From Sulfitobacter mediterraneus (lineage in GTDB: Bacteria > Pseudomonadota > Alphaproteobacteria > Rhodobacterales > Rhodobacteraceae), in assembly GCF_016801775.1 (NCBI RefSeq), contig NZ_CP069004.1, positions 3,286,001-3,350,000 on the forward strand: a stretch of DNA of 64,000 nt. Reading direction: 5' to 3'. How positions within the stretch are numbered: the first letter of the stretch is position 1; every line of letters begins with the position of its first letter. Below the pieces are notes generated by a model. It was not told where the DNA came from and made no database searches. It was given only the letters and a program-made list of their open reading frames with translations. The position numbers and the translations under genes were made by a program. Positions 41,545-62,569 of this stretch are shown here, piece by piece.

Positions 41545-42546
41545 TCAGACCTGATAATAGGCGCGATACCAATCGACGAAGGCCTGCAAGCCGTCCTTGA
41601 TATCCTTGGTGGGGCGATCCCCGATCAGTGCCGTCAGCAGCCGGGTGTCCGCCCAAGTGGCAGGCACGTCACCGGGTTGCATATCATGAAAGGTCTTGAT
41701 TGCCGCGCGCCCGCAAGCGGTTTCAATAGCAGCAATGAAATCCAGCAACTTCACCGGGCTGTCATTGCCGATATTGACCACCCGAAACGGCGCCACGGCT
41801 GAGACATTGTCATGCGCCACAGGCGCGGCGGGATCGGGGCGTTTGTCAATCAGGGCCATAATTGCGCCGACCAGATCATCGACATAGGTAAAGTCGCGCT
41901 GCATCTGGCCATGGTTGTAGATGTCGATTGGATCACCGTTCAGGATCGCCTTGGTGAACTTGAAATGCGCCATGTCAGGACGGCCCCATGGCCCGTAAAC
42001 CGTAAAGAACCGGAACATGGTCGTCGGCAGCCCGTAAAGGTGGGCATAGCTGTGCGCCATGGTTTCTCCCGCCTTCTTGGTGGCTGCATAGAAGGACATC
42101 GGGCTGTCCACCTTGTCTGTCTCTGCATAGGGCAGGTCGGTGTTCGCGCCGTAAACCGATGAGCTGGACGCCAGCAACAGGTGCTCTGGCGGGAAGGTCC
42201 GCGCGGCCTCAAGCAATTCGAAGGTTCCGATCAGGTTCGCCTCAACATAGGCCCTCGGCATATGCAGCGAATGGCGCACGCCCGCCTGTGCCGCCAGATG
42301 CACGACGATGTCCGGTCTGTGCTGTTCAAACAGGGTTAACAACACACCGGGCGTTTCGATCTTTTCGTTCACCACCTGAAACGCAGGATATTCCAGCAAC
42401 ATTTCCTGCCGCCGTTTCTTCAGCCCGACGTCATAATAATCCGACAGGCTGTCCAGTCCGACCACCTGCCATCCGGCCTCAAGCAACGCGCGAGAGGTGA
42501 AGTAGCCGACAAATCCGGATGATCCGGTGACAAGTGCGGTTTTCAA
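41545..42546 (-). CDS. UDP-glucuronate 4-epimerase-like NAD-dependent epimerase
   Basis: A 333-residue short-chain dehydrogenase-type epimerase. NAD motif TGSSGFVG at residues 7-14 and catalytic YxxxK in FYAATKKAG; the DSLSDYYDVGLKKRRQ segment and RFFTVYGPWGRPDMA are typical of UDP-glucuronate/galacturonate epimerases (Cap1J/LspL type). It would convert UDP-GlcA from the Ugd at 50903 into UDP-GalA. The start codon is TTG at 42546, overlapping the TGA of the dehalogenase gene by 4 bases, so translation is coupled to that gene; a functional link is not obvious. Confidence 0.85.
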   Translation of the reverse strand: MKTALVTGSSGFVGYFTSRALLEAGWQVVGLDSLSDYYDVGLKKRRQEMLLEYPAFQVVNEKIETPGVLLTLFEQHRPDIVVHLAAQAGVRHSLHMPRAYVEANLIGTFELLEAARTFPPEHLLLASSSSVYGANTDLPYAETDKVDSPMSFYAATKKAGETMAHSYAHLYGLPTTMFRFFTVYGPWGRPDMAHFKFTKAILNGDPIDIYNHGQMQRDFTYVDDLVGAIMALIDKRPDPAAPVAHDNVSAVAPFRVVNIGNDSPVKLLDFIAAIETACGRAAIKTFHDMQPGDVPATWADTRLLTALIGDRPTKDIKDGLQAFVDWYRAYYQV

Positions 42547-45500
42547 AGGTCAATCTCCAGGGTCGCACCCTCATGGGCGGCGCGGGATTGGCACAGGATC
42601 ATGGAGGTCTCACGTTGTGTGGCAGACAGCACAAAATCGCGGTGTTCCACTTCGCCGGCCTTCACACCGCATTTGCACACGCCGCAGATCCCGTCGGAAC
42701 ATTTGATGTCCACAGGTACCCCTGCGGCAATCAGCGCATCAGAGGCAGATTGATCCGCAGCGACCGCAATCTCGCGGCCCGAAGACAGGCGCAGGGTGAA
42801 GGGTGTGTTCACGTATTCAGGCAGTTCCGGTGTTGAGAAATATTCAAGATGCCGCGCGTCTTCGGGCACCCCCGCAGCCTCGGCCGCGTCCATGACCGAT
42901 TGCATATAGGCATCCGGCCCGCAGGTGTAAACGTGGCTGCCCTTTGGTAAGGTGGACATCAGTGCAGGTAAATCCGCGCGGCTGCCCTCGTCTGACAGAT
43001 GCAGATGCACCTGATCCTTCCAAGGCATCTGCGCCAAGAACGCAAGAAACGCGGCAGAGGCGCGGGACGATGACGAATAATGCAGGGCAAAAGGTTTGCC
43101 CAATGCGTGCAAGCGGTGCGCAAAGGCGATCATCGGGGTTACACCGATCCCGCCTCCCATCAACAAGGTCTGCGCGGCGTCTTCAACCAGTTCAAAATGG
43201 TTCACAGGTTTGGAAACAAACACCCGCCGCCCCTTGGTGAACACCCGGTGCAGCAATGCCGATCCGCCGCGCCCCTGATCCTCGCGCAGCACCGCAATCC
43301 GGTAGCGGCTGCGGTCTGCCGGATCACCCAGCAGGGAATAGGGTCGCAAGAATTCAGGCGCGACCACCAGATCCAGATGCGCCCCTGCCGTCCATTCCGG
43401 CAAGTCGTGCCCTTCGGGATGGGCAAAATCGTATAGCGTCACCCCATCGCTCATCTTTTCCGCGTTGACGATGCGCAGATCCAAAACCGGCGCATCACTG
43501 CCAACATTGTAAAGGTGCAGGTGGTCTGTCTCGCCTCGCGCAGATTTTGCACGATGTTCATCAGCGGTGATCAGATCGGCATGCGCCTTGATCCCGGCCT
43601 CGCGGTTCATCGGGTCAGGATAGGGCCAGGGATGCGCAGCCAGCGGCGCGGGGTAGACTGCCAGTGTCTGATCCTCGAACTTCAGGTCCAGATCGGTTTG
43701 CAGATCGCGGGTATTCACCGGGGCTGCGGGCGTGTCATAGCTGCCATCGTCCTGCAATTCGACATCCCACCACCACTTTTTGACCGGGTTCAACCGGCCC
43801 TTGCCAACCTTGTCGTCCAGCTTGGCCAGCATCGGCGCGGCCTGCGGAATATGTGTCGCGGCCCAGCGGAACGGCGCTTCGGCAAAGAGCCCCTCAAGAT
43901 TCCACGGACAGGTTTTCATACAACGCCCGCACATCGCGCCGCCCTGATTGGTGATCCGGTAGGTGGCGCATTTCTGGCTGTCGGATTTCCAGATCTCATA
44001 GCCGTTGAACATCTTTTTTGGCCCGGCGGTGATCGCACCAGAGGGGCACTCGCGGGCGCATTTGTTGCAGGCCTCACAAAACTTTTGCAGGCCAAAATCA
44101 ATGGGCTTGTCATGGGTGACGGGCAGGGTGGTTGTCACCACACCGGATTTCAGGCGTGGGCCAAGGAACGGGTTGAGGATCACCTCGCCGATGCGGCTGA
44201 CCTCACCCATGCCGGCCAACAACAACAAGGGTGGCTGCAACACATCGCCGTCCATCACCGTATGCGCCTTGGACGGATATCCAAGGTTGCGCAGATGTTG
44301 GGCCAGAACCCCACCCAGCATCGAGAACCGCAGGTAGGCCCGCATGCTTTGCGACACCGCGATCCAGTCGTCGCCCGACGATCCTTCCATGGTGTCGAAG
44401 CCCTGATCAATGATCATGCTCAGGGATTGATCATGGGGCGGATCTATGGGTGTGCCAGTGGCGTCATGGCTGTACCATGTCCAATCCGGACAGGCCGAAA
44501 TACCGGCGGCGTCCGCGCCCAGAAAATAGCTGGCCGCCTTGAGGTTGGCGGCATTGCGGGTGGCGTCATGCTGCGCCGGATCAGGATGCACCGCACCGTC
44601 CTGCAACAGGATCAAAGCCCCCAGCAAACGCCGTTGCGCCGCGGCAGGGGCGGATTTCACCACGTGATGACCGCCCTTCATGGCGTTTTGCACTTTTGGC
44701 CCCATATCGCCGAACTGTCCCCGCGCAAACAGATCGGCGCGTTTGGGGACGCGCGGCACGTTCGCCGCGTCGATATAAGTGGTTGGATCATCAACCCGTT
44801 TGAGGGTTTCAAACGGGTGCGGTCCCTGCGCATAGCCGCGTTTGGCATAAGGGTCGTGATCGCGGGCGCTGGTGCCGCCATGGGTGCCAAGCTGCCAATG
44901 CGGGCCTTTGAGAGCCGCCCAAGGCTGTTCGCGCAGCGGTGCCAGGGGCAGGTCGTTGGACAGGGCCATGTCAGTCGTCACAACCGCCAGGCCGAAGCGA
45001 TCACCGATCCAAGGCGCTTGCAATGTTCCGCCCTCCCAGACCGCCAGTCCCGCCGCAATCGCCAGTTTGCCCAGATGCACATCTGATGTGGTGGCCGAAT
45101 GCACCCGCGCATCAAAACCAAGCTGCCGGATATATTCGGCCAGCACGGTGGCATTTTCACTGGCCCTGAGGCAGGCGCGTTCGGCCTGCGCATTCATGAT
45201 CCAGTCGCTGCCCGGTTCGTCCGCCTTGGGATCGCGGGGAAAGGCCGTCAGAATCACCAGCGCATGATGGTGATCGCCAAGTGGCTGCGCCGGTGCCTCG
45301 GCCGCATCGCGCAGGTTCGCCATGATCACATCGACACCAGCGGCCAATGTCTTGGTCTGCCGCTCGCGCAGGTCACGGGCCAGTGCATCGGTGGCAGGGT
45401 TGTGGCGGGGTCGCGCCAGCCGCGCCGCATCGGGCAGTGCGCAAATGCCGACCATGCTGGCATCGTTGTAATAGCCAAAGGATTTGAGGTGCTGACTGCG

Positions 45501-45746
45501 CACCAAGGGATCATCGGGGATCGCTGCTTTGGCCGGGTTGACCTTGCCGCTGCGCACCACATCCATCATCGCTTGAAACGGCCCCATTGCATTGACAATG
45601 CTTGCCGGGTCTTCGGGCCGCTCAAAGCTCAGCGTCGGGAAAGGCAGGTCAGGCAAATGCGCCAAGGGTCCGGCCAACCGGCGCAAACGTTCCAGTGGAT
45701 ATGATCCCATATGCATGGGCCGCGATTTGGACGAGAAAAATTTCAT
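42543..45746 (-). CDS. Self-sufficient reductive dehalogenase: RdhA core fused to FMN/NAD(P)H/[2Fe-2S] reductase
   Basis: A 1067-residue protein. Residues ~80-620 form the cobalamin-dependent reductive dehalogenase part, with two [4Fe-4S] motifs: C557-xx-C560-xx-C563-xxx-C567-P and C593-x12-C606-xx-C609-xxx-C613-P. Residues ~740-970 are an oxygenase-reductase-type flavin module (RPYSL at 801, NAD loop GGGIGVTPM 864-872). The C-terminus is a plant-type ferredoxin, C1016-x4-C1021-xx-C1024-x27-C1052. There is no Tat signal and no RdhB anchor gene, so it should be cytoplasmic and fed by NAD(P)H, like the catabolic BhbA type rather than respiratory PceA. ATG 45746 is chosen; ATGs at 45716, 45710 and 45818 are alternatives. 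Likely substrates are halogenated phenolics; this is inference. A NitT/TauT importer is divergently encoded. Confidence 0.88.
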   Translation of the reverse strand: MKFFSSKSRPMHMGSYPLERLRRLAGPLAHLPDLPFPTLSFERPEDPASIVNAMGPFQAMMDVVRSGKVNPAKAAIPDDPLVRSQHLKSFGYYNDASMVGICALPDAARLARPRHNPATDALARDLRERQTKTLAAGVDVIMANLRDAAEAPAQPLGDHHHALVILTAFPRDPKADEPGSDWIMNAQAERACLRASENATVLAEYIRQLGFDARVHSATTSDVHLGKLAIAAGLAVWEGGTLQAPWIGDRFGLAVVTTDMALSNDLPLAPLREQPWAALKGPHWQLGTHGGTSARDHDPYAKRGYAQGPHPFETLKRVDDPTTYIDAANVPRVPKRADLFARGQFGDMGPKVQNAMKGGHHVVKSAPAAAQRRLLGALILLQDGAVHPDPAQHDATRNAANLKAASYFLGADAAGISACPDWTWYSHDATGTPIDPPHDQSLSMIIDQGFDTMEGSSGDDWIAVSQSMRAYLRFSMLGGVLAQHLRNLGYPSKAHTVMDGDVLQPPLLLLAGMGEVSRIGEVILNPFLGPRLKSGVVTTTLPVTHDKPIDFGLQKFCEACNKCARECPSGAITAGPKKMFNGYEIWKSDSQKCATYRITNQGGAMCGRCMKTCPWNLEGLFAEAPFRWAATHIPQAAPMLAKLDDKVGKGRLNPVKKWWWDVELQDDGSYDTPAAPVNTRDLQTDLDLKFEDQTLAVYPAPLAAHPWPYPDPMNREAGIKAHADLITADEHRAKSARGETDHLHLYNVGSDAPVLDLRIVNAEKMSDGVTLYDFAHPEGHDLPEWTAGAHLDLVVAPEFLRPYSLLGDPADRSRYRIAVLREDQGRGGSALLHRVFTKGRRVFVSKPVNHFELVEDAAQTLLMGGGIGVTPMIAFAHRLHALGKPFALHYSSSSRASAAFLAFLAQMPWKDQVHLHLSDEGSRADLPALMSTLPKGSHVYTCGPDAYMQSVMDAAEAAGVPEDARHLEYFSTPELPEYVNTPFTLRLSSGREIAVAADQSASDALIAAGVPVDIKCSDGICGVCKCGVKAGEVEHRDFVLSATQRETSMILCQSRAAHEGATLEIDL

Positions 45747-45846
45747 GCCACAGCAGGTGCCACAGCGGCGCGTGAATTGCCAGTGCCGCGCTTGACTCTG
45801 CCGGACCGCCTTGACCATGCTACTGCCAGAAATGGGGAGTAAGAAC

Positions 45847-46866
45847 ATGATCACTTTTAACCGCCGCCAGACCTTGGCCACGATGGGCGCTGCCGCCGCT
45901 GTTGGCCTTGCCGCGCCCGCGATTGCACAAAACAAGAAAATCGTTGTCGGTGCGCTGCGCTTTACCAGCCATTCGGGCAGCTTTGTCGCCTTTGAGCGGG
46001 ATTATTTCAAAGAGGCCGGTCTTGATGTCGAACTGCGGTTCTTTCAGGCCGCACAGCCAATGGCGGTGGCGATTGCCAGCGGCGATGTCGACTATGCCGT
46101 GACCGCCATTTCCGGCGGCCTTGTCTCACTGGCCCAAAAAGGCGCGATCAAGGTGATCGGCGGCGCATTGCAGGAAGAACCCGGCATCGACGGTCAAAAG
46201 TTCCTGGTCTCTGACGCGGCCTATCAGGCGGGCGTCACATCCCCGGCGATGCTGGATGGCAAAAGCTATGGCATCACTCAGGCGGGATCATCCTTCCATT
46301 ACATGGGGTCTAAGATGGCTGCCGCAGAAGGGATCAACCTGACCTTCAAGCCGCTGCAAAAGGTCGGTGCGATCATCGGTGCACTGAAATCGGGGCAGAT
46401 TGATGGCTGGTCCATCGTGCCACATATCGCCAAGCCCCTGGCAGGCTCAGGCGCAGTGCATATCATCGGCGATGTGGCCGATTATCTGCCCGATTATCAG
46501 GTCACGACCGTCTTTACCTCGGCCAAGAACGCCAGCGAAGATCGGGATCTGACACAAAGTTTCCTTGGCGGGTTCTCCAAGGGGGTCGCGGACTACAACA
46601 GCGCGATGATCGCCAAGGACGGCGGCGAGGATGGCGTCAACGCCATGGTCGATCTGATCCATAAATATGTCTACACAGACCGCCCCCGTGAAAAGGCGGC
46701 ACCGTCGATCATCAACGGCACGATGCGCCTGAATGAAGGTGCGGCCCTGAATGTGGCCAGCGTCCGCGACCAGCTTGAATGGTTCCAGTCCGAAGGTCTG
46801 GTGGATGCGGATATCACGCTGGATCAACTGGTCGACACATCATACGTCAAAACAATGGGCGCCTGA
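45847..46866 (+). CDS. NitT/TauT-type ABC transporter substrate-binding protein (NMT1/THI5-like)
   Basis: A 339-residue periplasmic protein with a Tat-like signal peptide (NRRQTLATMGAAAAVGLAAP, cleavage near AIAQ). The mature fold is NMT1/THI5/SsuA-like: AFERDYFKEAGLDVELRFF, then IASGDVDYAVTA. Ligands in this family include nitrate, taurine, sulfonates, aromatic acids and pyrimidine precursors. GGGGAG stands 7 bases before ATG 45847. The gene is divergent from the dehalogenase, 100 bases away, and may bring in its substrate. A terminator-like hairpin follows and probably sets the high binding-protein:ATPase ratio. Confidence 0.87.
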   Translation: MITFNRRQTLATMGAAAAVGLAAPAIAQNKKIVVGALRFTSHSGSFVAFERDYFKEAGLDVELRFFQAAQPMAVAIASGDVDYAVTAISGGLVSLAQKGAIKVIGGALQEEPGIDGQKFLVSDAAYQAGVTSPAMLDGKSYGITQAGSSFHYMGSKMAAAEGINLTFKPLQKVGAIIGALKSGQIDGWSIVPHIAKPLAGSGAVHIIGDVADYLPDYQVTTVFTSAKNASEDRDLTQSFLGGFSKGVADYNSAMIAKDGGEDGVNAMVDLIHKYVYTDRPREKAAPSIINGTMRLNEGAALNVASVRDQLEWFQSEGLVDADITLDQLVDTSYVKTMGA

Positions 46867-46889
46867 GCGGCACAGATCGCATCTATCAG

Positions 46890-46916
46890 GGGCCGGGCTT
46901 TCCGTCCGGCCCTTTT
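46890..46916 (+). terminator. Intra-operon terminator/attenuator between binding protein and ATPase genes
   Basis: Stem GGGCCGG / CCGGCCC with a 9-base loop followed by TTTT. It lies 23 bases after the stop of the binding-protein gene and 23 bases before the ATPase start, so some transcripts would end here and others read through. Confidence 0.65.
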
Positions 46917-46938
46917 GTATTGGAATGAAGGCTGCGCC

Positions 46939-47706
46939 ATGGACCTGCGACTGGACAACATCAGCCATCACTACGGTGACACCGAAGTGCTGCGTGACAT
47001 CACGCTCGAAATCCCATCGGGGCAGATTGTCTGTCTCGTCGGGCCATCAGGCTGTGGCAAATCCACCCTGCTGCGGCTGATCGGCGGGCTGGAAGAACCC
47101 GGCGGCGGGCAGGTGCTGCAACTGGGCGCAGCGCCTGAGGGTTGCCTGAACCCGCTGACCTATATTTTTCAAGATTTCGCCCTGCTGCCATGGCGGTCGG
47201 TACGCGGCAATGTTGAATTGGTGCTTGAAGATCACCGGCTGAGCGCGTCGGCGCGCGGCGAGATCATTGATGATGTGCTGGCCCGCACCAAGCTCAGCGA
47301 ATTTGCAGATGCCCTGCCCAAACAATTGTCTGGAGGCATGAAACAAAGGGTGGCCATTGCCCGCGCACTGGCCGTGCGCCCGGCAGTGATGTTGATGGAT
47401 GAACCCTTGTCGGCGCTGGACAGCCAGACCCGCGAATTGCTGATGGATGATCTGATCGGCCTGTGGACACGGCAACCCTTCACGGCGGTCTATGTCACCC
47501 ACCACCTCGCCGAAGCGGTGCGCCTGGGTCATAAGATCGTCGTGCTGTCCCGCAGGCCGGGCCGGATCCGGGAGGTTGTGACGCTGAACACGCCGCTGGT
47601 CGAACGTGCTTATGGTGATGCGGCACTTGAGGAACAGCAACAATATCTTTGGGGTTTGATGCGCGAAGAAGCTGCTGCCGCCGATGCGGAGCTGATTCAT
47701 GTCTGA
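46939..47706 (+). CDS. NitT/TauT-type ABC transporter ATP-binding protein
   Basis: A 255-residue single ABC ATPase. Walker A GPSGCGKST, Q-loop FQDFALLPWRS, signature LSGGMKQRVAIARAL and Walker B VMLMDEPLSALD are intact, and the FALLPWRSV Q-loop is typical of the SsuB/TauB/NrtD group. ATG 46939 begins the first strand (MDLRLDNISHHYG); the frame extends 8 codons further upstream. It overlaps the permease gene by 8 bases. Confidence 0.92.
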   Translation: MDLRLDNISHHYGDTEVLRDITLEIPSGQIVCLVGPSGCGKSTLLRLIGGLEEPGGGQVLQLGAAPEGCLNPLTYIFQDFALLPWRSVRGNVELVLEDHRLSASARGEIIDDVLARTKLSEFADALPKQLSGGMKQRVAIARALAVRPAVMLMDEPLSALDSQTRELLMDDLIGLWTRQPFTAVYVTHHLAEAVRLGHKIVVLSRRPGRIREVVTLNTPLVERAYGDAALEEQQQYLWGLMREEAAAADAELIHV

Positions 47707-48505
47707 CACCAAAGAATTGCAAGCCCAGAAGGTCACTTTCAGAGGTGGCGGTTTCATCACCCAGCGCAAACGCGGGGTTGGGATCGTGGTGTTTGTGCTG
47801 CTGATCGTGCTGGCCGAATGGGGCACGCGCAGTGGCGTTATTTCATCACTGACCCTGCCGCGGCCCAGCGATGTGGCCGCGACCTTTGGGGAACTTTATG
47901 CATCCGGCCTGCTGTTCAAACATTTGATCCCCTCCCTGACCCGGCTGGTGATCGGGGCCAGCATGGGTGCGGTGATCGGGATCTCGGTCGGCGTGTTGAT
48001 CGGACTCTTCAGCCTTGTGCGGGCGGGGCTGGTGCCACTGGTTGCGGCGATCTTTCCTATTCCCAAAATAGCGTTGTTGCCGCTGTTTGTGATCTGGTTC
48101 GGCATTGATGAGGCCAGCAAATATGCGTTGATTGCCTTTGGTACGTTCACGCCCACAGTGGTGGCGACCTATGCGGCGGTCGACAACGTGGACCGCAGCC
48201 TGATCCGCATGGGGCAAAGCTTTGGACTGACTTGGTGGTCGATCGTGCGCAAGATCGTGCTGCCCGGAGCCATGCCCGGTATCCTGTCAGGGCTGCGGGT
48301 GTCACTGACCATCGCGATTATCCTTTTGGTGGCCGCTGAAATGCTGGGCGCGCAATACGGGATCGGGGCCTATATCCTTGAGGCAGGCAGCCTTTACGAT
48401 CTGGAACGTTTGTTTGCCGGCGTGGTGATCTTGTCGGTGCTAGGGGTGGCGGTGTCTTCGGCGATTGCGGCGCTGGAACGGCGGGTGCTGCGCTGGCGGG
48501 TCTGA
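47699..48505 (+). CDS. NitT/TauT-type ABC transporter permease
   Basis: A 268-residue inner-membrane protein with about six helices and the SsuC/TauC-like PIPKIALLPLFVIWFGIDEAS segment, then the EAA-type loop VDRSLIRMGQSFGLTWW. Only one permease is encoded, so it should act as a homodimer. Its end is followed within 7 bases by an intergenic repeat with hairpins that can serve as terminator. Confidence 0.9.
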   Translation: MSDTKELQAQKVTFRGGGFITQRKRGVGIVVFVLLIVLAEWGTRSGVISSLTLPRPSDVAATFGELYASGLLFKHLIPSLTRLVIGASMGAVIGISVGVLIGLFSLVRAGLVPLVAAIFPIPKIALLPLFVIWFGIDEASKYALIAFGTFTPTVVATYAAVDNVDRSLIRMGQSFGLTWWSIVRKIVLPGAMPGILSGLRVSLTIAIILLVAAEMLGAQYGIGAYILEAGSLYDLERLFAGVVILSVLGVAVSSAIAALERRVLRWRV

Positions 48506-58584: not shown

Positions 58585-58611
58585 GGGGCTGTGTCACTGG
58601 GAGGAACACAT

Positions 58612-59463
58612 ATGAAACGACTGGCACAAATGGCCTGCGCGGTATCGGTGATGGCATTTGGCGGGGCGGCATTTGCCGATCCGGTGGATGACACGCTGAT
58701 CCTGAATGAAGACATCACCATGGTAACGCGGACAGCAGCGCCTGCGCATCTTGAGGACGTCATGGACGAAGTTATATCGGGTTGGCATTTCCGCGGGACA
58801 GAAACCCGCGCGATGCAAGCGGACGATTTCGACAATCCCGGCATGATCTTTGTGGAACAGGCCGAAGAGGTCTGGAACACCGCTGAAGGCTCCGAAGGCA
58901 AGTCCTGTGCAAGCTGCCACAATGAGCCTGAAACGATGGCCGGCGTGCGGGCGGTCTATCCCAAGTGGAACGAAGCGGCGGGTGAGGTGCGCACCCTTGA
59001 GATGCAGATCAACGACTGCCGCGAAAACCGTATGGGCGCGGAAAAGTGGAAGTACACCAAAAGCAAAATGGTCAACATGACCGCGCTCTTGGCATCTGTA
59101 TCTCGCGGCATGCCGATCAATGTCGCCATTGACGGTCCGGCGCAATCCACATGGGAGCAGGGCAAGGAACTCTACTACACCCGCACGGGCCAGTTGGAAC
59201 TGTCTTGCGCAAATTGCCACGAAGACAGCTATGGCAAGATGATCCGCGCCGATCACCTCAGCCAGGGCCAGATCAACGGCTTTCCTGTTTACCGCTTGAA
59301 AAACACCAAGTTGAACGCGGTCCACGCCCGTTTCAAAGGCTGCGTGCGCGACACGCGCGCCGAGACATACAAGCCCGGCTCGCCCGAGTTTATCGCGCTT
59401 GAGCTTTATGTCGCTTCGCGCGGCAATGGTCTGTCCGTCGAAGGACCGTCCATCCGAAACTAA
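58612..59463 (+). CDS. soxA: Dihaem c-type cytochrome SoxA
   Basis: A 283-residue periplasmic protein with a signal peptide ending near Ala22. Two haem sites are present: C99-A-S-C-H103 and C199-A-N-C-H203. Cys136 and Cys244 (KGCVRDTRAE) are the distal cysteine ligands; the second is the persulfide ligand of the active-site haem. This is the dihaem form seen in Paracoccus and Rhodovulum. ATG 58612 follows GGGAGGAA; an in-frame start seven codons earlier is not favoured. A strong hairpin lies 7 bases after the stop. Confidence 0.96.
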   Translation: MKRLAQMACAVSVMAFGGAAFADPVDDTLILNEDITMVTRTAAPAHLEDVMDEVISGWHFRGTETRAMQADDFDNPGMIFVEQAEEVWNTAEGSEGKSCASCHNEPETMAGVRAVYPKWNEAAGEVRTLEMQINDCRENRMGAEKWKYTKSKMVNMTALLASVSRGMPINVAIDGPAQSTWEQGKELYYTRTGQLELSCANCHEDSYGKMIRADHLSQGQINGFPVYRLKNTKLNAVHARFKGCVRDTRAETYKPGSPEFIALELYVASRGNGLSVEGPSIRN

Positions 59464-59470
59464 GACATGA

Positions 59471-59499
59471 CCCCGCGCAGAACGCTGCGCGGGGATTTT
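59471..59499 (+). terminator. Strong stem-loop with short T-run between soxA and soxB
   Basis: Perfect 10-base stem CCCCGCGCAG / CTGCGCGGGG with loop AACG (59481-59484), followed by ATTTTC. It has the form of a Rho-independent terminator, yet lies inside the sox gene set, 7 bases after soxA. It likely attenuates transcription or protects the 3' end of the soxXYZA message. Confidence 0.75.
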
Positions 59500-59552
59500 C
59501 GCATCTATTAAATTCACAAATGCGCATACGTGCGCGTGACTGGAGCCACCCT

Positions 59553-61256
59553 ATGATTTCTCGCCGCGATTTCCTGCAAACCTCCATGGCCGCTGCGGCC
59601 CTTTATGGCGGGTCCGGCTTTGGCAATTGGTCTCAACTTGCCGCACAACAGGCCCTGACACAGGACAAACTGCTGGAATTTGACAGCTTTGGGAATGTCT
59701 CGTTGATCCATGTCACGGACATCCATGCCCAGCTCAAACCACTGTATTTTCGTGAGCCAGAGGTAAATATCGGCGTGGGCGACAACAAAGGCGCGGTGCC
59801 CCATTTGACTGGTGCGGACTTCCGTCGCGCATATGGCATCGAGGACGGCAGCCCCTCCGCCTATGCCCTGACCTACAATGATTTTGCATCCCTCGCCAAA
59901 GGCTATGGTCGCGTTGGTGGTCTGGACCGGGTTGCGACAGTGATCAATTCCATCCGTGCCGAACGTCCCGACGCCCTGCTGCTGGACGGCGGCGACACAT
60001 GGCACGGCAGCTACACCTGCTATCACACCCAGGGGCAGGACATGGTCAATGTCATGAACGCCTTGAAACCGGACGCGATGACCTTCCACTGGGAGTTCAC
60101 GCTGGGTTCCGACCGGGTGAACGAGATTGTAGAGGGCCTGCCTTTTGCGGCGCTGGGCCAGAACATCTTTGACGCCGAATGGGATGAACCGGCGGAATTG
60201 TTCCCGCCCTACAAGTTCTTTGAGCGCGGCGGCGTGAAGATCGCTGTGATCGGCCAGGCCTTTCCCTATATGCCCATCGCCAACCCCGGCTGGATGTTCC
60301 CTGAATATGCTTTCGGCATCCGCGATGAGAACATGCAGGACATGGTCGATCAGGTTCGCGCCGAAGGGGCCGAGCTGGTCGTCTGCCTCAGCCACAATGG
60401 CTTTGACGTGGACAAGCGGATGGCAGGTATTGTCACCGGCATCGACGTGATCCTGTCCGGCCATACCCATGACGCACTGCCCGAACCGGTGTTGGTGGGC
60501 GATACGATCATTGTGGCTTCGGGATCGAATGGCAAGTTCGTCAGCCGCGTCGATCTGGACGTGCGCGATGGCCGTATGATGGGCTTTCGTCATAAGCTGA
60601 TCCCGATCTTCTCGGATGTGATCACCCCGGATGCAGAAGTGGCCAAGCTGATTGACGAACAACGTGCGCCATACCTCGACGATCTGACCAAGGTGATCGG
60701 CAAGACGGCTGATGACCAAACGCTTTACCGCCGCGGAAATTTCAACGGCACATGGGACGACCTGATCTGTGACGCACTGATCTCGGAACGCGAGGCGGAT
60801 ATCGCCCTGTCCCCCGGTGTGCGCTGGGGGCCGTCGATCCTGCCCGGTCAGGACATCACCCGCGAGGACATCTGGAACGTCACGTCCATGACCTATGGTG
60901 AGGCGTACCGGACCGAGATGACAGGTGAATTCCTGCATGTCGTGCTCGAAGACGTCGCTGACAACCTGTTCAACCCCGATCCCTATTACCAGCAGGGCGG
61001 CGATATGGTGCGCGTTGGCGGCCTTGGTTACCGAATTGACGTGACCAAAAAGCAAGGCGAACGGATCACCGAAATGACCTTGCTGAAAACCGGTGAGTTG
61101 ATCGATCCGGCCAAGACCTATCAGGTCGCAGGCTGGGCCTCGGTCAACCAGGGCACCGAAGGGCCGCAGATCTGGGATGTGGTCGAGGCGCATATCGCCA
61201 AACAGGGGACGGTATCCCTTGATCCGAACAACAGTGTGAAAGTTGTCGGGGCGTAA
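59553..61256 (+). CDS. soxB: Thiosulfohydrolase SoxB
   Basis: A 567-residue dimanganese enzyme that hydrolyses the terminal sulfone from SoxY-bound substrate to give sulfate. The Tat signal SRRDFLQTS starts at residue 3. Metal-site motifs of the 5'-nucleotidase fold are visible: HVTDIHAQL, LDGGDTWHGS, TFHWEFTLG (HWEF replacing the NHEF of nucleotidases), SHNGFDVD and SGHTHDA. The start is ATG 59553 after TGGAG; the open frame extends back to 59520. It is 89 bases from soxA, with a hairpin in between. Confidence 0.96.
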   Translation: MISRRDFLQTSMAAAALYGGSGFGNWSQLAAQQALTQDKLLEFDSFGNVSLIHVTDIHAQLKPLYFREPEVNIGVGDNKGAVPHLTGADFRRAYGIEDGSPSAYALTYNDFASLAKGYGRVGGLDRVATVINSIRAERPDALLLDGGDTWHGSYTCYHTQGQDMVNVMNALKPDAMTFHWEFTLGSDRVNEIVEGLPFAALGQNIFDAEWDEPAELFPPYKFFERGGVKIAVIGQAFPYMPIANPGWMFPEYAFGIRDENMQDMVDQVRAEGAELVVCLSHNGFDVDKRMAGIVTGIDVILSGHTHDALPEPVLVGDTIIVASGSNGKFVSRVDLDVRDGRMMGFRHKLIPIFSDVITPDAEVAKLIDEQRAPYLDDLTKVIGKTADDQTLYRRGNFNGTWDDLICDALISEREADIALSPGVRWGPSILPGQDITREDIWNVTSMTYGEAYRTEMTGEFLHVVLEDVADNLFNPDPYYQQGGDMVRVGGLGYRIDVTKKQGERITEMTLLKTGELIDPAKTYQVAGWASVNQGTEGPQIWDVVEAHIAKQGTVSLDPNNSVKVVGA

Positions 61257-61285
61257 CCCCCGAACTGCCAGAGGAGACATGACAG

Positions 61286-62569
61286 ATGTCAGATAAAAGA
61301 ACACCGGGCGCTCCCTCGCGCCGTGCCTTTCTGCGTGGGGCCGCCGCGGCCAGTGCAGGCGCTATTGCCGCAGGCACTGCCCGTGCCGCCACGCCCGATC
61401 CGCTGATCACCGAAGTTCAGCCTTGGGCGCGGGAATTGGGCGATGGTGTCGACGCCACGCCTTACGGTTTGCCAATTGAATATGAAAACGATGTGATCCG
61501 CCGCAATGTGGAATGGCTGACCGCCGACACCGTTAGTTCGATCAATTTCACCCCGATCCACGCCCTTGACGGAACGATTACCCCGCAGGGCTGCGCGTTC
61601 GAACGGCACCATTCCGGTGCGATTGACCTGAAAAAGCAGGATTACCGCCTGATGATCAATGGTCTGGTGGATACGCCACTGGTCTTTACCTATGCCGATC
61701 TGGAGCGTTTCCCGCGCGAGAACCATGTGTATTTCTGTGAATGTGCGGCCAACACCGGGATGGAATGGGCCGGGGCTCAGTTGAACGGGGCGCAATTCAC
61801 CCATGGCATGATCCATAACATGGAATACACCGGCGTGCCCCTGCGCACGCTGCTGGAAGAGGCCGGTCTGGATACGGCAGGGGATCTGAAGGACAAATGG
61901 GTGTTTGTCGAAGGTGCAGATGCATCGTCAAATGGCCGGTCGATCCCGATGGAAAAGGCGCTGGATGATGTCTTGGTCGCCTTCAAGGCCAACGGCGAGG
62001 CGTTGCGCAAGGAGCACGGCTATCCGGTGCGTCTGGTTGTCCCTGGTTGGGAAGGCAACATGTGGGTCAAATGGATCCGCCGGATCGAGGTCATGGATGC
62101 CCCTGTCGAAAGCCGCGAAGAGACCAGCAAATACACTGACACGCTGGAAAACGGCATCAGCCGCAAATGGACATGGGCGATGGATGCAAAATCGGTTGTC
62201 ACCTCACCCAGCCCGCAAGCACCGATCACGCACGGCAAGGGGCCATTGGTGATCACCGGATTGGCGTGGTCGGGCCGCGGTGCGATCAAACGGGTGGATG
62301 TCTCCAAGGATGGCGGCAAGACATGGGAAACTGCCCGCCTGGCCAAGCCGGGTGAGAAAATGGCACTGACCCGCTTCTACCTCGATACCAATTGGGACGG
62401 GGAAGAGATGCTGCTGCAATCGCGTGCCATGGATGACACCGGGTATGTGCAGCCCACCAAGGCGCAGCTGCGCGAAGTGCGCGGGCTCAATTCGATCTAT
62501 CACAACAACTGCATCCAGACATGGTTGGTGCGCAGCACGGGCGAGGCTGAAAATGTCGAAGTTTCTTAA
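61286..62569 (+). CDS. soxC: Sulfane dehydrogenase molybdenum subunit SoxC
   Basis: A 427-residue periplasmic molybdopterin protein of the sulfite oxidase family. Tat signal SRRAFLRG at residues 11-18. The Mo-ligating cysteine is probably Cys153 in CECAANTGMEW; the C-terminal dimerisation domain ends in HNNCIQTWLVRS. With SoxD it removes six electrons from SoxY-bound sulfane sulfur, so presence of both predicts full oxidation to sulfate without sulfur globules. Its last 17 bases overlap soxD. Confidence 0.95.
   Translation: MSDKRTPGAPSRRAFLRGAAAASAGAIAAGTARAATPDPLITEVQPWARELGDGVDATPYGLPIEYENDVIRRNVEWLTADTVSSINFTPIHALDGTITPQGCAFERHHSGAIDLKKQDYRLMINGLVDTPLVFTYADLERFPRENHVYFCECAANTGMEWAGAQLNGAQFTHGMIHNMEYTGVPLRTLLEEAGLDTAGDLKDKWVFVEGADASSNGRSIPMEKALDDVLVAFKANGEALRKEHGYPVRLVVPGWEGNMWVKWIRRIEVMDAPVESREETSKYTDTLENGISRKWTWAMDAKSVVTSPSPQAPITHGKGPLVITGLAWSGRGAIKRVDVSKDGGKTWETARLAKPGEKMALTRFYLDTNWDGEEMLLQSRAMDDTGYVQPTKAQLREVRGLNSIYHNNCIQTWLVRSTGEAENVEVS

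Follow-up and report, generated by a model that had tools for sequence, protein, structure and literature searches.

The window analyzed here, a stretch of 64,000 nucleotides from Sulfitobacter mediterraneus, includes a long reading frame whose product combines a reductive dehalogenase core with a reductase, and the question it raises is which reaction such a protein would carry out and on which substrates. The gene, rdhA, occupies the minus strand (45746 to 42543) as one uninterrupted frame that reaches its stop after 1067 residues, and it was identified as an rdhA-PDR fusion by its translation and its NCBIfam and PDB matches. The coordinates in the initial annotation, 42543..45746, were exact but lacked the strand, and a plus-strand reading of the same region is interrupted by stops. 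The frame remains open upstream as far as a TTG at 45935; the Met at 45746 is the likely start because the relatives align from that residue. The best 80 of 207 confirmed stretches encode the same fusion protein at 62–97% identity, and a chance origin of the frame is therefore excluded. All features of this gene given below lie on the minus strand.

Translation, profiles and motifs bore out the composition first proposed, namely an RdhA core with two [4Fe-4S] motifs, an FMN/NAD(P)H module and a plant-type [2Fe-2S] domain in one polypeptide of 1067 residues. The protein scored 187.6 bits on the NCBIfam RDH model (TIGR02486, cut-off 160.35), with its best stretch at residues 442–632 (43851..44423). 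The best PDB match was NpRdhA (4ras, E 7.7e-156), aligned over residues 1–106 and 158–743, which defines the RdhA part (residues 1–745, 43512..45746) as an N-terminal core copy followed by the cobalamin core and the 4Fe-4S part. The N-terminal second copy of the core is present, as the alignment runs from residue 1 through both copies; the first copy is described as vestigial in NpRdhA (PMC10463259). Residues 107–157 (45276..45428), an insertion with respect to NpRdhA, are found in the fused rows shown, BhbA included (the row of locus L019 begins after the insertion, where its frame is split), and an insertion has been reported in JtRdhA and related fusions (PMC10463259). A motif script located CxxCxxCxxxC at 557 and CGRCMKTCP at 606, and the two [4Fe-4S] motifs consist of C557–C567 (44046..44078) and of C593 with C606–C613 (43905..43970, through P614, by alignment and script). 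Residues 754–1066 (42549..43487) form a phthalate-dioxygenase-reductase-type module for FMN, NAD(P)H and [2Fe-2S]; phthalate dioxygenase reductase (2pia) matched residues 754–1062 in the PDB sequence search (E 5.4e-51), and the script found RPYS at 801, GGGIGVTP at 864 and CSDGICGVC at 1016. The plant-type [2Fe-2S] cysteine set, C1016–C1052 (42591..42701), was identified by alignment, script and PF00111, and its fourth cysteine, C1052, is invariant across 43 aligned rows. Among the Pfam families, Fer2 and three 4Fe-4S families exceeded their cut-offs, and flavin/NAD-type matches stayed under theirs.

The initial annotation had named grouping of the core with epoxyqueuosine reductase (QueG) as one of two findings that would overturn it, the other being a modeled site unable to hold cobalamin. 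The placement was run. Local similarity to the QueG model was weak, its 20.4 bits being far from the cut-off of 200, and the same protein reaches 187.6 bits on the RDH model (cut-off 160.35), so a QueG assignment was rejected. The genome has a separate QueG elsewhere (C1:2605951, 422 bits). In both core trees relied on, one free of QueG and a second one, each of which carries long-branch warnings, the window protein groups with NpRdhA and BhbA; the two trees disagree on the branching of PceA and of the short rows, and no conclusion was drawn there. That the protein is a QueG, or any other class III B12 enzyme that does not dehalogenate, is thus extremely improbable.

No twin-arginine pattern was found by script in the first 60 residues, and no RdhB anchor gene is adjacent to rdhA, whose neighbors are a sugar epimerase and an ABC solute-binding protein. 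Both absences had been noted before and were upheld, as was the view that the layout is unlike organohalide respiration, since the features of respiratory RdhAs, the Tat signal and the membrane anchor, were not encountered. Foldseek with a predicted model built from 39 sequences ranked NpRdhA at the top (E 6.8e-51), with 14 NpRdhA chains followed by two self-sufficient P450s and 2pia. The model has a mean pLDDT of 73.4, with values below 50 at 498–524 and 552–590, the part of the cofactor site, and it was used for fold kinship only. For this reason cobalamin binding is a prediction from the kinship with NpRdhA and the retained catalytic residues, in place of a modeled cavity.

Residues S422, M423, Y426, K488 and R552 of NpRdhA correspond to S467, M468, Y471 (44334..44336), K533 (44148..44150) and R597 (43956..43958) by alignment, and they are kept in the window protein and in 81/81 fused rows. 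Together with F291 (F340 here) they are the same in all 16 rows of the Sulfitobacter clade and in all 65 other fused loci. The catalytic Tyr/Lys/Arg check proposed at the outset was consequently positive, as Y471, K533 and R597 are kept along with the phenol-binding Ser, S467; the roles of S422, Y426, K488 and R552 in NpRdhA are those given in PMC7565698. Judged from its sequence, the window protein very likely works in the cytoplasm as a self-sufficient Rdh-PDR fusion that uses NAD(P)H to dehalogenate ortho-halogenated phenols reductively. Among the self-sufficient RdhA fusions it is a well-conserved and probably active member.

The class of fused RdhA proteins was already known, as had been stated; BhbA and JtRdhA have the same architecture, and most catabolic RdhAs carry a PDR domain (PMC10463259). 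JtRdhA, from the marine bacterium Jhaorihella thermophila (WP_104007082), has the same layout by its published description. It shares the lack of a Tat signal, the duplicated core, the two [4Fe-4S] clusters, the PDR-type FMN/[2Fe-2S] module, the key Y/K/R and an insertion absent from NpRdhA; JtRdhA is biochemically proven (PMC10463259), whereas the activity of the window protein is predicted. BhbA of Comamonas sp. 7D-2 is the same fusion and aligns end to end, with 50.8% identity over 1060 positions, but its gene is on plasmid pBHB, where protocatechuate 4,5-dioxygenase genes and one for a transporter binding protein are adjacent. NpRdhA of Nitratireductor pacificus (4ras, 6zxu) is 41.5% identical to the RdhA part over 684 positions and has the same catalytic residues, but it lacks the fused reductase and the 107–157 insertion.

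JtRdhA is an NADPH-dependent, oxygen-tolerant debrominase and deiodinase in which electrons pass from NADPH through FMN and [2Fe-2S] to two [4Fe-4S] clusters and cobalamin (PMC10463259). On the model of the characterized homologs, NAD(P)H would reduce FMN in the C-terminal reductase of the window protein, and from there single electrons would reach base-off cobalamin in the RdhA core by way of the [2Fe-2S] domain and then the two [4Fe-4S] clusters. A phenol with an ortho halogen would bind so that S467/K533/R597 contact its hydroxyl and the halogen faces the cobalt, Y471 would serve as the proton donor, and the halide would depart. The product may then enter the 4-hydroxybenzoate/protocatechuate route of the genome, where pobA (678.8 bits) and pcaH (342 bits) are neighbors at C1:549277-551764, on the same contig as rdhA and far away from it. 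A second match beside them (117.6 bits, under the cut-off) is probably pcaG. The initial annotation had also advised a search for cobalamin genes elsewhere in the genome, and cobN, one gene of cobalamin synthesis, was found in two pieces (1049.2 bits together). By analogy, the likeliest substrates would be bromo- and iodophenols, natural marine bromophenolics included. Purified JtRdhA converts both bromo- and iodophenols, and the chloro analogues tested only inhibit it (PMC10463259). Therefore, the earlier suggestion that natural brominated or chlorinated aromatics are used is favored in its brominated half and weaker in its chlorinated half.

Kinship was examined in a quick maximum-likelihood tree of 84 rows, comprising the window protein, the best 80 of the 207 stretches, NpRdhA, BhbA and the Nitratireductor OM-1 copy. 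The window protein pairs with a Sulfitobacter mediterraneus copy (97%) inside a clade of 17 rows (support 100, stem 0.27), made up of the 16 Sulfitobacter-clade rows and locus L021. The S. undariae copy (L082) branches outside this clade. Within the genus, 53 of the 62 genomes have a fused match at E = 0, a few of them split; by identity, 28 genomes carry the window's type (73–100%) and 25 a second type (60–65%), and none of the 62 is listed with both. The placement of S. undariae and the occurrence of two fused types in one genus suggest replacement or transfer. In three genomes with the window's type (G009, G016 and G018) the fused gene is split between frames near residues 170–200, by frameshift, decay or sequencing error; G018 shares its coordinates with L019, S. 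noctilucae. The fused gene of G043 is split at contig ends. In the family, surveyed in genomes of at least 90% completeness with matches at E 1e-200 or better, 101 of 246 genomes have a fused match, which covers nearly the whole length in 98 and is partial in G151, G154 and G298. Plasmids carry the fused gene as well: of 758 plasmid records with any match, eight align over 80% or more of the query.

Although the residues of the chemistry are constant, the wall of the pocket differs from that of NpRdhA at five positions: A419 to V464 (44355..44357), N452 to V497, F290 to L339, K307 to M356 and F310 to H361 (M356 to H361, 44664..44681). BhbA has F, S, S and A at NpRdhA positions 290, 310, 419 and 452, where the window protein has L, H, V and V. 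A419 of NpRdhA sits in the second-halogen pocket, and its replacement by Met moves the relative preference to mono-halogenated substrates and does not raise activity; K307, at the entrance, forms a salt bridge to the benzoate carboxylate (PMC7565698). The entrance residues of the window protein differ from those of NpRdhA, BhbA and most marine relatives, and the substrate may therefore differ as well. At position 307, Met is found in 16/16 Sulfitobacter-clade rows, compared with Ala in 61, Ser in three and Met in one of the other 65 loci; at position 310 the clade has His in 16/16 rows, and the others have Tyr in 64 and His in one. The lone Met and His outside the 16 rows are likely both those of L021, a locus that falls within the clade in the tree. 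Since the two entrance positions changed together, the Sulfitobacter clade might have shifted to another class of substrate, either differently substituted rings or a larger bromophenolic of natural origin, and the long stem beneath the clade (0.27) is consistent with such a shift. Nonetheless, every residue of the chemistry is unchanged in the clade, the predicted model has pLDDT below 50 at 323–342 and 345–349, and the column of M356 and H361, firm among the fused proteins, is matched to NpRdhA 307 and 310 by an alignment that adjoins a two-residue gap. A shift of substrate class is thus possible but doubtful, and the protein is still best read as a dehalogenase of ortho-halogenated phenols.

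The genes around rdhA were then considered for the part that this dehalogenase might play in the cell. The NAD-dependent sugar epimerase gene (41545..42546, minus strand) follows rdhA and is itself followed by rpe; beginning at a TTG, it shares 4 bases with the end of rdhA, and the pair looks as if translationally coupled. An NMT1/SsuA-like ABC transporter (45847..48505, plus strand; solute-binding protein with the ATG taken at 45847, ATPase, permease) is divergent from rdhA. No role in dehalogenation is implied for either. No sigma-70-type site was found in 45500-46000, which says little for this bacterial group. Farther out in the window are fatty-acid-type CoA genes, a UDP-glucose dehydrogenase, a sulfatase and, at the right end, sox genes (58591-62569), among which SoxA, SoxB and the sulfite dehydrogenase SoxC exceed their cut-offs.

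The solute-binding protein was found in nine, the epimerase in ten and rpe in 14 of the 15 loci L005–L019. Of these three genes, only rpe was detected, at more than 40% identity over more than half the length, in the other 65 loci, in L044 and L051; some misses are due to contig ends, for example upstream of L013 and downstream of L016. The arrangement is thus partly conserved among Sulfitobacter and not beyond. On these grounds the epimerase and the divergent transporter were rejected as partners of rdhA in a functional operon, as neighbors confined to Sulfitobacter point to an inherited position and are not evidence of joint function. Codon-scored calling at 80 loci gave an upstream neighbor in 74 and a downstream neighbor in 70; with L007 (upstream) and L032, L056 and L084 (downstream) excluded from the Pfam scans, the commonest immediate upstream families occur in at most 7 of 73 loci and the commonest downstream family, that of the epimerase, in 10 of 67.

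No halophenol, ring-degradation or ring-cleavage gene adjoins rdhA. An aromatic catabolic cluster, typical of BhbA and not a defining trait of the fusion type, was accordingly not found here. The initial proposal of aerobic, catabolic, BhbA-like dehalogenation holds for the layout, and its catabolic part receives no backing from the neighborhood. The same chemistry could instead serve detoxification or halide scavenging, taking bromine off inhibitory bromophenols of algae and other marine life. The fused gene is widely held in the genus (53/62 genomes) and has no catabolic cluster around it, whereas protocatechuate 4,5-dioxygenase genes border BhbA on pBHB and the Nitratireductor OM-1 relative lies near pobA and ring-cleavage genes. 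In two marine plasmid copies, those of Ruegeria TM1040 and Jannaschia M317, neither ring-cleavage nor protocatechuate genes were seen in gene tables that are incomplete. On the other side, the genome encodes pobA and pcaH and would be able to use the dehalogenated product. We give this role somewhat less than an even chance; it concerns physiology and is compatible with the reading of the protein as a dehalogenase.

The same genome encodes a second, short RdhA of 391 residues without a reductase (C1:1439935-1441107, plus strand), which passes the RDH model with 177 bits. It is 79% identical to a copy from Roseobacter sp. MED193 in which CDICTKCADACP occurs at 283 and CAICMRVCP at 337. Ros_A3X954, the 2,6-dibromophenol debrominase purified from MED193, has the same motifs at the same positions (PMC13101508), and the MED193 copy was taken to be Ros_A3X954 because of this agreement, the short RdhA being read as its ortholog. 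Ros_A3X954 also lacks a Tat signal, but it is short, has no reductase, groups apart from the fused clade and is reported to be highly oxygen-sensitive (PMC13101508). The short type, at 78% identity or more, occurs in 13 of the 62 genus genomes, all of which have a fused gene (nine of the window's type, four of the second type); this association is not significant within the genus (p 0.18). In the family, 31 of 246 genomes have the short type (E 1e-150), 101 the fused type and 23 both (Fisher p 1.3e-4, shared ancestry ignored). The Met/His entrance may suit one natural marine organobromine, and 9 of the 28 genomes with the window's type pair it with an enzyme of the Ros_A3X954 type; a two-enzyme, B12-dependent debromination in aerobic heterotrophs would follow, which we consider rather unlikely.

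Putative bhbA homologs have been described as widespread in the Roseobacter clade (PMC13101508), and, with the account of the fusions in PMC10463259, neither the architecture nor the marine spread is new in outline. Two points are left open in PMC10463259: whether the fusions are restricted to brominated substrates, and what determines the substrate range of self-sufficient RdhAs, after one example studied in detail. New here are the distribution counts, the co-occurrence of the two enzymes and the entrance residues specific to the clade; no earlier account of them was found in literature listings, which leave subscription journals mostly outside. The entrance residues offer a direct test of substrate-range control in self-sufficient RdhAs. 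Should the predicted activity prove real, a widespread lineage of aerobic marine bacteria would carry out B12-dependent debromination routinely, and the reaction would not be peculiar to anaerobes or polluted soils; this would bear on marine bromine cycling and on the choice of debromination catalysts. As a minor observation, the product of the gene that follows the short RdhA scored 203.9 bits on a FosX-family model (cut-off 170).
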